From contig NZ_JAHTIK010000001.1 in the NCBI RefSeq assembly GCF_025655475.1, forward strand, positions 799,622 to 863,621: 64,000 nt of DNA. Direction: 5' to 3'. Each line of letters opens with the position of its first letter. Positions within the stretch are counted from its first letter, which is position 1. Of this stretch, positions 15,844-63,891 are shown piece by piece. The notes beneath the pieces were generated by a model that saw only the letters and a list, made by a program, of their open reading frames with translations, made no database searches and was not told where the DNA came from. The DNA comes from Kitasatospora sp. DSM 101779 (GTDB taxonomy: Bacteria > Actinomycetota > Actinomycetes > Streptomycetales > Streptomycetaceae). Both the position numbers and the translations under genes were made by a program.

Positions 15844-16680
15844 TCAGAGGGTCGGCGGCGCCGTGCGGCGGGCCGCGTGACGGGCGCGGGCGGCGGCCAG
15901 GTCGCGGCGCAGCTCGTCCTCCGGGATCTCCGGGGCGAGTCCGGCCCGTCCGGGGTTCTGCCGCCAGCAGCCGCAGGGCCGGCTGAAGGTGCGGCCGTCG
16001 GTCGTGGTGTCGAGCAGCTCCGGCAGCCCGGCGAGGCGGCTGCAGCCGCGGACGGCATCGCGTGCCCGGTCGGCCGCGTGGAGCAGTCGCAGCTCCCACC
16101 GCAGGATGCAGTACGAACAGGCCGGGACCGCCGCCCGGTCGGCCTCGGCCAGCTCGGCGAGTGCGGTGCGGACGGGCCCGGCCAGGGACTCGTCGGCCGC
16201 CGCCTGCAGCAGCAGGAGGTTCACGGACTCCCGGTCCCGCGGATCGCACCAGATGAGCCGCAGCAGGGCGGCGGCCAGCAGGCGGTCGCCGCCGTCCGGA
16301 AGGGGCGCGACGAGGTGGATCCGGGTCAGCAACTGCTCGTCCCCCGCCGTCTCCTGTCCGTCGGCCGAGCGCCGGGCCTCCCAGTCCAGCTCGAACCGTG
16401 CGGCGTCCTCGCCGGCCGCGGTGTCCACCGGATACTCCAGCGTGCACTGCCGCCCGCTCCGGACGGTGGGCGCGAGCTCCACGTGCGTCCTCGTGCCGTC
16501 GGCAGCGTCGTACCTCCGCCGCACCCGCACGACCGGACGGGCCGGCGGCATGACCAGCCGCAGCACGAGGTCGCGTGCCGACCACCCCGGCGCCGGCGGC
16601 ACGACCCGCAGCGACGACCGACCGCCGTCGAGGCCGATCGACACCAACTCCTTGTGTTTGACGACCAGTTCCCAATCCAT
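15844..16680 (-). CDS. Hypothetical protein
   Basis: A 278-residue soluble protein with no family I can name. The N-terminal half is beta-rich (MDWELVVKHKELVSIGLDGG, VVRVRRRYDAADGTRTHVELAPTV). The C-terminal half is helical with Cys-containing patches VPACSYCILRWELRLL and FSRPCGCWRQNPG. A strong GGAGGAGGG site precedes ATG 16680, supporting the start. It is downstream of a disrupted gene on the same strand. A structural or effector role cannot be assigned. Confidence 0.7.
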   Translation of the reverse strand: MDWELVVKHKELVSIGLDGGRSSLRVVPPAPGWSARDLVLRLVMPPARPVVRVRRRYDAADGTRTHVELAPTVRSGRQCTLEYPVDTAAGEDAARFELDWEARRSADGQETAGDEQLLTRIHLVAPLPDGGDRLLAAALLRLIWCDPRDRESVNLLLLQAAADESLAGPVRTALAELAEADRAAVPACSYCILRWELRLLHAADRARDAVRGCSRLAGLPELLDTTTDGRTFSRPCGCWRQNPGRAGLAPEIPEDELRRDLAAARARHAARRTAPPTL

Positions 16681-60849: not shown

Positions 60850-62352
60850 TCAGGTCGCCGCAGGCCGCTCGACCACGATCTCGCGCTTGAGGATCTTGCC
60901 GGTGGCGCCCTTGGGGAGCCGGTCGGCGAAGGTGACGATCCGGGGGTACTTGTAGGCGGCCACCCGCCGCTTGACGTGCTCGCGGATCAGGTCGGCCGTG
61001 GTCCGCTCGCCCTCCCGGAGGACGATCACGGCGGCGATCTCCTCCCCGTGGTGCTCGTGCGGGACGCCGACGACCGCGGCCTCGGCCACCGCCGGATGCT
61101 CGTACAGCACCTCCTCGATCTCCCTCGGGTAGACGTTGTACCCGCCGCGGATGATCAGGTCCTTCTTGCGGTCGACGATGTAGTAGTAGCCGTCCGCGTC
61201 GACCCGGGCCAGGTCGCCGCTGTGGAACCAGCCGTCCTGGAAGGCCTCCGCGGTCGCCTCGGGACGGTTCCAGTAGCCCTTCATCACGTTCTCGCCGCGG
61301 ATCGCGATCTCGCCGACCTCACCGGGCCCGACCGGGGTGCGGTCGGCCGCCACGAGCCTGAGGGCCACACCGCGGACTGGGAGCCCGATCGAGCCGGGCC
61401 GGCGCGGCCGGTCGGGGTGGTTGAACGAGGCCACCGGGGCCGTCTCGGAGAGGCCGTACCCCTCGAGCACGACCGTGCCGAACGAGCGCTCGAAGGTGTG
61501 GAGCACTTCGACGGGCAGCGCGGCGCCGCCCGACACGGCCAGCCGCACCTGCGGGAGGTCGTGGCCGTCCGGGGCGCCGGTGTTGAGCAGCGCGGTGTAC
61601 ATGGTGGGCACGCCCAGGAACACGGTGACCCCGTCCCGCCGGAGGATCTCCAGGGCCTGCTGCGGATCGAAGCGCGGCAGGAGGGTCAGGGCCGCGCCGG
61701 CCGCGACGGCGGCGTTCATCGCACAGGTCTGCCCGAAGGCGTGGAACAGCGGGAGGCCGCCGAACAGGACGTCGTCCGGGCCGAGTTCGAAGAGCGTCTC
61801 GACACAGGTCACGGCGTTGCTCAGCAGGTTGCGGTGGGTGAGCTCGGCGCCCTTCGGCGTCCCCGTGGTGCCCGAGGTGTAGAGGATCACCGCGGTGTCG
61901 TCGGCGGCCCGCTCGGCGACCCCGTGCAGCGGCGGGATGCTGCCGAGCAGGGTGTCGAAGGCCGAGGCCTCGACGACCAGGCTGCCCACCCCGGCCTCCC
62001 CGGCGGCCTCGGCGACCTCGTAGGCGAACGGCGGAGCCGTCAGGACGGTGCGGGCCCCGGAGTCCCGCAGGACGAAGGCCATCTCCCGGGCCTTCAGCAG
62101 CGGGTTCATCGGCACCGCGACGGCACCGGCGCGCAGCACGGCGTAGTAGGCGACCGGGAAGAGCGCGACGTTGGGCAGCACCAGGGCCACCCGGTCGCCG
62201 GGGCGGACGCCGTCGGCGTGCAGCAGGGCGGCCAGCCGGGCGCTGGCGTCCTCCAGCCGGGCGTAGGTCAGGACGGTCCCGTCCTGCCGGACGGCGGTCC
62301 GTTCCCCGTGTGCCCGGGCCGAGGACACCAGGAGCGAGACGAGGTTGGTCAT
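60850..62352 (-). CDS. Long-chain fatty acid-CoA ligase (AMP-forming)
   Basis: A 500-residue ANL-superfamily enzyme. The P-loop is YTSGTTGTPKG (158-168), the A5 motif YGLSETAP, the A7/A8 region GWFHSGDLARVDADGYYYIVDRKKDLIIRGGYNVYPREIEEVL, and the C-terminal catalytic Lys lies in LPKGATGKILKRE. It activates a carboxylic acid with ATP and CoA. AAGGAG precedes ATG 62352. It is transcribed away from the AraC gene from a promoter whose twin lies on the other side of that regulator, so AraC control is likely. Confidence 0.93.
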   Translation of the reverse strand: MTNLVSLLVSSARAHGERTAVRQDGTVLTYARLEDASARLAALLHADGVRPGDRVALVLPNVALFPVAYYAVLRAGAVAVPMNPLLKAREMAFVLRDSGARTVLTAPPFAYEVAEAAGEAGVGSLVVEASAFDTLLGSIPPLHGVAERAADDTAVILYTSGTTGTPKGAELTHRNLLSNAVTCVETLFELGPDDVLFGGLPLFHAFGQTCAMNAAVAAGAALTLLPRFDPQQALEILRRDGVTVFLGVPTMYTALLNTGAPDGHDLPQVRLAVSGGAALPVEVLHTFERSFGTVVLEGYGLSETAPVASFNHPDRPRRPGSIGLPVRGVALRLVAADRTPVGPGEVGEIAIRGENVMKGYWNRPEATAEAFQDGWFHSGDLARVDADGYYYIVDRKKDLIIRGGYNVYPREIEEVLYEHPAVAEAAVVGVPHEHHGEEIAAVIVLREGERTTADLIREHVKRRVAAYKYPRIVTFADRLPKGATGKILKREIVVERPAAT

Positions 62353-62702
62353 GGCGTGGTCTCCTTCGGGCCGAGCCGGTGGCGGCTCCGGTACGGGAGG
62401 CGGACGGCGAGGTCCGCCGGGTGCGGTGGGGTGATCGCGTCGAGGGGCGGGACGCCGCCGCGACCGGTGTCGGTGTCGGTCCGGTACGGGTCCGTCCACA
62501 GGGCGGGCGGAAGCGGCCGGCCCTGCCGCAGGGCGAGCCGGAGCCGCAGCAGGTGGCGGCGGTGTCCCGGGCCGTCCCGTACGCGGAGCGGGAGTGCAGG
62601 AGCGCACGTGGCGGTGCCGGGCGGAGGGAGATGCGGGCGGTCCGTGGCCGGCCCGCCGGCCGCCGCTGGGGCCGGCGCGCCGACCCGCTCGGCGGTGGTG
62701 CA
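62353..62702. other. Long 5' leader of the acyl-CoA ligase
   Basis: About 340 bp between the predicted -10 (62703-62708) and the ligase start. Frames here are Pro/Arg-rich with no start or family motif. No gene is seen. Confidence 0.45.
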
Positions 62703-62767
62703 ACGGTAGGTGCCCGCCCGTCACATCGCTTGACTTCACGTGACAATTGACTTACCACTTGGGGACA
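62703..62767 (-). promoter_or_regulatory. AraC-type control module, left copy
   Basis: Reading leftward: TGTCCCCAAGTGGTAAGTC (62767-62749), 3 nt, TGTCAC, 5 nt, GTCAAGCG, then TCAAGC-N19-TACCGT as -35/-10 (-10 at 62708-62703). It drives the acyl-CoA ligase and ends 22 bp from the AraC start, so it can also autoregulate. Confidence 0.75.
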
Positions 62768-62789
62768 TCCTCCGAGGGGAGCTGATCCC

Positions 62790-63803
62790 ATGAGGCCCCT
62801 GGTCCGCACCGCGGCGCTGAGCGGCTACGTCGAGCTGAGCCGGTCGCTCGGTCTCGACCCGCAGCCGCTGATGAAGCGCGTCGGCCTGGATGCCGCCGGC
62901 CTCGCCGTCCAGGACCGGTGGATCTCCGGCGCAGCCGTGGTGCAGCTGCTGGAACTCTCGGCCGCCGCCGCCCGGCGCGAGGACTTCGGCCTGCGGATGT
63001 CGGAGTTCCGCCGGTTCTCCAGCCTCGGCCCGATCAGCCTCGTCCTGCGGGAGGAGCCCGACGTCCGCAGCGCGCTCGGGCTCATGCTCCGGCACGAGCA
63101 CATGTACAACGAGGTGCTGCACACCCGGCTCTCGGAGCGCGACGGCCTCGCGACGATCAAGGTCGGGCTGGACCTCGGCGAGCCCATGGAGCACCGCCAG
63201 GCGACCGAGCTGGCGGTGGGGGCCTTCCACCGCGTCCTGCTCGGCTTCCTCGGCGCCCACTGGCGCCCGCTCTCCGTCTGCTTCACCCATCCCGCCCCGG
63301 CGGACACCGGCACCCACCGGCGGATCTTCGGTTCCGCGGTGGAGTTCGGCCGGGAGTTCGACGGCATCGTCTTCTACGCCGCGGACCTCGAGTCGCCCAA
63401 CGCGATGTCCGACCCGCAGCTGCGGACGTACGCCCAGCAGTACTTCGAGGCCATCGCCGTCCCCAGGGACACCACCGTGCCGGACCGGGTGCGCGAGCTG
63501 ATCGAGGTGCTGCTGCCGACCGGGCGCTGCTCGGTCGAGCAGGTCGCCCGCAGTCTGGGCGTCGACCGGCGCACGGTGCACCGCCATCTCGCGCAGTCGG
63601 GCGAGACCTTCTCCTCGCTCCTCAACGCGACGCGGGTGCAGCTCGCCGAGCAGTTCGTGGCCAACCGGCGGCGGTCGCTCACCGAGATCGCCGACCTGCT
63701 GGGGTTCTCGGCGCCCAGTGCGTTCTCCCGCTGGTTCCGCGAGCAGTTCGGCTGCACCGCCCGGGAGTGGCGGGACCGCCGGGGGCAGACCGCCGAGCAC
63801 TGA
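62790..63803 (+). CDS. AraC-family regulator with arabinose-binding-like N-terminal domain
   Basis: A 337-residue OruR/ArgR-like regulator. Residues ~10-210 are the PF12625-type sensor domain (SGYVELSRSLGLDPQPLMKRVGL, FTHPAPADTGTHRRIFGSAVEF). The C-terminal double HTH is CSVEQVARSLGVDRRTVHRHLAQSGETFSSLLNATRVQLAEQF plus SLTEIADLLGFSAPSAFSRWFREQFGCTAREWR. GGGGAG precedes ATG 62790. The gene sits between two near-identical promoter modules, suggesting it activates the acyl-CoA ligase and the next gene to the right. Relatives often control lipid or sterol catabolism. Confidence 0.93.
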   Translation: MRPLVRTAALSGYVELSRSLGLDPQPLMKRVGLDAAGLAVQDRWISGAAVVQLLELSAAAARREDFGLRMSEFRRFSSLGPISLVLREEPDVRSALGLMLRHEHMYNEVLHTRLSERDGLATIKVGLDLGEPMEHRQATELAVGAFHRVLLGFLGAHWRPLSVCFTHPAPADTGTHRRIFGSAVEFGREFDGIVFYAADLESPNAMSDPQLRTYAQQYFEAIAVPRDTTVPDRVRELIEVLLPTGRCSVEQVARSLGVDRRTVHRHLAQSGETFSSLLNATRVQLAEQFVANRRRSLTEIADLLGFSAPSAFSRWFREQFGCTAREWRDRRGQTAEH

Positions 63804-63826
63804 CCGCGCCGGCCTCCGGGGCCGCG

Positions 63827-63891
63827 TGTCCCCAAATGGAAAGTCCGCTGTCACCCACGGTCAAGCGCCGCCGCCCGGCGAGCCCTACCTT
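63827..63891 (+). promoter_or_regulatory. AraC-type control module, right copy
   Basis: TGTCCCCAAATGGAAAGTC (63827-63845), 3 nt, TGTCAC, 5 nt, GTCAAGCG, then TCAAGC (63861)-N19-TACCTT (63886-63891). Same element order and spacing as the left copy, inverted. It should drive a rightward gene beyond the window. Confidence 0.75.

Follow-up and report, generated by a model that had tools for sequence, protein, structure and literature searches.

Two probable operator-promoter modules flanking an AraC-family regulator gene and the compact local regulon that they probably define

The gene of an AraC-family regulator (337 aa, 62790..63803, plus strand) is bordered on each side by a 65-bp module, at 62767->62703 on the minus strand (left module) and at 63827->63891 on the plus strand (right module), near the end of the window, i.e., the whole stretch of 64,000 nucleotides that was analysed. 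Judging from their sequence and distribution, these modules are very probably the operator-promoters of the regulator encoded between them, which would act on both by class II activation within one local, two-promoter regulon. From the conservation of the module, the tracking of target genes by its right copy and the presence of two sites in each orthologue-bearing genome, we infer that a VirS-like AraC activator most likely governs a β-keto-acid-cleavage (BKACE/TauD/acyl-CoA ligase) gene cluster through a compact regulon of two sites.

The regulator, which is the presumed binder of both modules, combines an N-terminal Arabinose_bd domain (PF12625, 2e-46, residues 21-203) of the VirS/QhpR/GliR-like branch with a C-terminal AraC helix-turn-helix domain (PF12833, 7e-18; PF00165, 2.7e-10). 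Among solved structures, VirS comes closest (8rcx, E=1.8e-40), with a phmmer score of 142 bits over query residues 3-332, thereby covering both domains. The regulator had initially been labelled OruR-type; VirS is the solved relative nearest to it, and the genes around it are those for BKACE, TauD and the ligase. Assignments as QhpR (NCBIfam NF049968) or GliR (NCBIfam NF050186) were rejected, as the scores of 193.5 and 105.2 bits are below the curated cut-offs of 250 and 570, respectively. A second copy of the regulator, 53% identical, is present in a congeneric genome (G074:C42:7820-8809) and has no module within 3 mismatches beside its gene; the operator of this copy has presumably diverged.

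Architecture of the two modules

Both modules were read directly from the sequence and are found, base for base, where a preliminary description of this DNA had placed them on the two sides of the AraC gene. On the minus strand from 62767, the left module is composed of half-site 1, TGTCCCCAAGTGGTAAGTC (62749..62767), which is conserved in orthologues, followed by AAT, half-site 2, TGTCACGTGAAGTCAAGCG (62727..62745), 18 nt, and the -10 hexamer TACCGT (62703..62708), with a predicted transcription start at about 62696. On the plus strand from 63827, the right module consists of half-site 1, TGTCCCCAAATGGAAAGTC (63827..63845), CGC, half-site 2, TGTCACCCACGGTCAAGCG (63849..63867), 18 nt, and the -10 hexamer TACCTT (63886..63891), for a predicted start at about 63898. 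In both copies, half-site 2 sits at the -35 position. The elements that had been singled out initially are all present, namely a 19-bp box identical at 17 of 19 positions between the modules, TGTCAC after 3 nt, GTCAAGCG after a further 5 nt, and TCAAGC 19 nt before TACCGT or TACCTT. It is likewise correct that the spacing is kept while the spacer letters differ: the core is identical at 31 of 41 nt between left and right copies, versus 6 of 18 for the spacer preceding the -10, which is near chance. In a blind repeat search, the module pair emerged as the longest inverted repeat of the region (41 nt, 76%).

The box, TGTCAC and GTCAAGCG had been presented as separate pieces; while their sequences stand, each module is better described as a pair of direct half-sites in tandem, about 19 bp long and 22 bp apart (TGTCCCnnnnnGnnAAGTC / TGTCnCnnnnnGtnAAGC). 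The three pieces form a single tandem direct repeat because the similarity of the column profile peaks at offset 22: over 48 non-redundant sites, the profile of positions 1-19 recurs there with r=0.76, as compared to 0.26 for the next best offset. In the left copy alone, the two half-sites match at 9/19 positions, barely above the 8/19 obtained at offset 21. The half-site patterns are TGTCCC-N5-G-N2-AAGT for the first and TGTC-N-C-N5-G-t-N-AAGC for the second. A TANNNT sequence begins 18 or 19 nt past half-site 2 in 73 of 77 sites, and exactly 18 nt past it in 39 of the 47 UP sites and 29 of the 30 DN sites. The element TCAAGC, initially proposed to be -35-like, does occupy this position, but it is part of half-site 2 and is not a canonical -35.

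No consensus sigma-70 promoter, canonical -35 or terminator was found at the modules, nor any Rfam match for an RNA element in the leader, and the 12 nt preceding half-site 1 are devoid of conserved elements, including any that might belong to the promoter of the regulator gene. For a transcription start located 7 nt beyond the -10, the half-sites would lie at about -71 to -53 and -49 to -31. With its proximal half-site overlapping the -35 position and its -10 at a fixed distance, this predicted layout is that of AraC/XylS class II promoters, and the arrangement itself is already known, being the standard one of this family. For instance, CphR, an AraC-type activator of Rhodococcus sp. YH-5B, binds two tandem imperfect direct repeats (-69..-55 and -49..-35, with a two-base overlap between the proximal repeat and the -35) before its target promoter, and its gene is divergent as well; however, for CphR the half-site reads TGCA-N6-GGNTA and the period is 20 bp, in contrast to TGTCnC-N5-GnnAAG with a 22-bp period here (PMC6205950).

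Conservation and co-distribution with the regulator

The site collection draws on 65 relatives of the regulator in species genomes, complemented by genome searches. The 180 bp preceding araC were scanned, on the predicted strand, with a 31-position pattern (score of at least 20/31); as this pattern was derived from the two sites of the window itself, the collected sites are anchored by it. The preliminary description had suggested looking for the boxes beside orthologous AraC genes, and the idea survived this check: excluding the window species and near copies, the module lies upstream of araC in 50 of 56 actinobacterial orthologues, the other 6 scoring below threshold. At the same threshold, 8 of 15,386 windows taken at random from these loci (0.05%) passed, as did 3 of 5,600 shuffled upstream regions. 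Orthologues with the module include those of Streptomyces, Streptacidiphilus, Rhodococcus, Nocardia, Kutzneria, Saccharopolyspora and Gordonia. Pseudomonas orthologues have the same build with a 21-bp period, as in L102, where TGTCCCGAAATGTCAAGTTCA TGTCCCGATCGGTCAACCC, 18 nt and TACAGT can be read by eye.

Where target genes lie right of araC, a second copy is found on that side in 30 of 30 loci; the 29 others have none. These do not amount to 59 independent observations because about three changes in right-copy presence suffice on the regulator tree (two of them on well-supported branches). One of these changes sets apart a Rhodococcus/Prescottella group that has the MFS gene alone on the right. 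An independent-pairs test on the tree has too few changes to reach significance. The initial proposal that the conserved spacing points to selection, the module being an operator motif of the AraC regulator, is supported by both its conservation beside orthologues and the tracking of the target operon by the right copy.

In two Streptomyces loci (L051 and L092), the BKACE operon is 11-12 kb away from the regulator, and whole-genome searches revealed a second module there, 230-270 bp upstream of BKACE. In two Nocardia loci (L072/L077), the divergent operon encodes a small Pfam-negative protein and then a DyP-type peroxidase, and in Pseudomonas L102 the divergent gene encodes a small unrelated protein; in all of these, a module is still found beside araC. 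The module therefore stays with the regulator where the enzyme genes differ, and goes along with the operon where the latter has been relocated. A single module is found in Rhodococcus, Nocardia, Kutzneria and Saccharopolyspora, whose cluster is for the most part one divergent operon.

The module had also been put forward as a candidate regulon motif. As a motif it holds, but its reach is not genome-wide: it is local, with two sites per genome. The 8.5-Mb host genome has no third site within 3 mismatches of the 19-base skeleton. Among 70 congeneric genomes, the 5 that have an orthologue carry exactly two sites each (up to 2 mismatches) and the other 65 none, while matches with 3 mismatches are no more frequent than those of a reversed-pattern control.

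Target operons and loss of a leading gene

The left module was said to fire toward the acyl-CoA ligase gene, and this is its orientation, although through a decayed dioxygenase gene. The AMP-forming ligase (500 aa, 60850..62352, minus strand) is preceded by the 3' remnant of a gene for a second TauD-like dioxygenase (62353..62601, minus strand), covering residues ~281-364 of 365. This remnant is 90% identical at the DNA level over 250 nt to locus L043 (tblastn E=7e-26). The intact gene (PF02668) lies between left module and ligase in L037, L043, L044 and L059, where it encodes a protein of ~365-398 aa, and a gap of the same size separates module and ligase in most other streptomycete loci. In the window, about 0.94 kb is gone between the remnant and the left promoter, and the promoter beside the gap is intact. 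From this comparison, the remnant is what is left of the former first gene of the left operon and would now serve as leader of the ligase mRNA. In another genome (G026, locus L036), the dioxygenase has apparently been lost altogether and the ligase is directly behind the module.

The right module does point out of the window, as had been noted, and just outside lies an operon (L035:8780-15892). Its first gene begins at L035:8780, about 160 nt beyond the window end. The operon encodes a BKACE enzyme (PF05853), a quinone-oxidoreductase (QOR)-like dehydrogenase, a TauD-family dioxygenase very close to the solved protein 5vn6 (E=1.5e-142), an MFS transporter, a serine hydrolase and an acetoacetyl-CoA synthetase (TIGR01217, above cut-off). 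BKACE enzymes convert a β-keto acid and acetyl-CoA into acetoacetate and an acyl-CoA, and the presence of an acetoacetyl-CoA synthetase in such an operon fits, since BKACE yields acetoacetate. The BKACE operon is conserved across Streptomyces, Rhodococcus, Nocardia and Saccharopolyspora, and part of it occurs in Pseudomonas. Downstream of it, at L035 ~15950-16550 (plus strand), examination of the ORF list by eye indicates an apparent truncated fragment of a LysR-type regulator.

Mode of action, alternatives and a possible wider code

In the proposed mechanism, a dimer of the regulator, presumably with an inducer from the pathway bound to it, would bind head-to-tail to two half-sites separated by 22 bp, or about two helical turns. 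Of these, the downstream one would replace the -35, with the TANNNT -10 located 18 nt later, and the bound dimer would contact RNA polymerase so that the promoter fires, as in class II activation. The left copy would thereby drive the ligase gene, and the right copy the operon for BKACE, the QOR-like dehydrogenase, TauD, the MFS transporter, the hydrolase and acetoacetyl-CoA synthetase. Such a regulon may serve to break down a compound by oxidation to a β-keto acid and cleavage of the latter to acetoacetate.

The comparison with VirS of Mycobacterium tuberculosis (8rcx, 8rcw), the closest solved sequence over the full length, is relevant here. Both regulators share a two-domain build, and both adjoin a target operon, the operator region of VirS being located between virS and mymA (PMC13234193). 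Unlike in the VirS/mymA system, there are here two target promoters, one per side, and the cluster is centred on BKACE and not on mymA. The VirS operator sequence was not found in the literature search. The sign of regulation is the weakest step of the mechanism proposed above because the VirS ligand alpibectir lowers binding of VirS to its operator while inducing mymA (PMC13234193).

The regulator could indeed act on the modules mainly as a repressor, covering the -35 region until an inducer releases it. The overlap of half-site 2 with the -35 position and the effect of alpibectir on VirS would both fit, and since VirS may not be a simple activator (PMC13234193), repression or dual action is conceivable in the present case as well. 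Repression as the main mode is nonetheless unlikely, given promoters devoid of a recognisable -35 (no sigma-70-like match), a fixed distance between half-site 2 and the -10, as expected where an activator substitutes for the -35, and tandem repeats at a position that is typical of AraC/XylS activators (PMC6205950). This fixed distance would also suit a sigma-factor promoter, and one could envision that the modules are bound by an unusual sigma factor or by another, genome-wide regulator, with the AraC gene lying between them by chance. That the host genome has no further good site, that good sites are confined to genomes with an araC orthologue, and that the module stays by araC where the neighbouring enzyme genes differ make this very improbable.

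Even less credit can be given to the second module being a functionless product of recent inverted duplication or of chance likeness. The gene is indeed bracketed by the two copies as an imperfect inverted repeat, but the core has been maintained between copies whose spacers differ (6/18 identical), and the copy moves with the BKACE operon; moreover, Streptomyces and Streptacidiphilus have retained both copies, as has, independently, the Rhodococcus group with the MFS gene on the right. Class II activation by the AraC-family regulator from both modules is thus the preferred reading.

The module code did not match the motifs described for GliR, SAV742 and MSMEG_0307. GliR (PA3027) of Pseudomonas aeruginosa is a related AraC-type regulator and also has two sites, one of them at the -35, but the modules bear no resemblance to its motifs, YYGGCGHTDTYSGMC and GGAYAWCGCCG (PMC8151288). 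SAV742 of Streptomyces avermitilis, although a streptomycete AraC-family regulator, is a global repressor recognising a short inverted repeat of low specificity, GCCGA-n-TCGGC, in contrast to the two high-specificity tandem sites per genome described here (PMC5107987). In the open-access literature searched, a scope that leaves out most subscription journals, no description of the motif or the cluster was found, and this DNA code and its spread across many bacteria appear to be undescribed so far.

Whether the code extends further is a more speculative matter. In several Pseudomonas loci (L095:1395-1607 and L097/L099/L103), the gene of a paralogous AraC regulator (~38% identical) lies opposite BKACE; between the two are tandem TGGCACGTAATGAAAGG-like / TGGCACGTAATGAAAGGTTTT-type repeats, which have a 21-bp period and the same skeleton, with otherwise different sequence. 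It is possible, if rather doubtful, that TGnCnC-N5-GnnAAG, in tandem at 21-22 bp, represents the operator code of the whole VirS-like AraC branch in Actinomycetota and Pseudomonas. If true, and as suggested by these paralogues, the operators of uncharacterised members, and perhaps of VirS itself, would be readable from sequence.

For this group of AraC regulators, for which the literature searched gave no described motif, an operator motif of exact geometry is now available, and a two-promoter regulon can, with the qualifications given above, be assigned to a conserved BKACE catabolic cluster. As the cis-element tracks a shuffled operon and outlasts the loss of its promoter's first gene, it offers a clean natural case of operator-regulator co-inheritance, and the specific sensor/promoter pair may be used in the search for the inducer.
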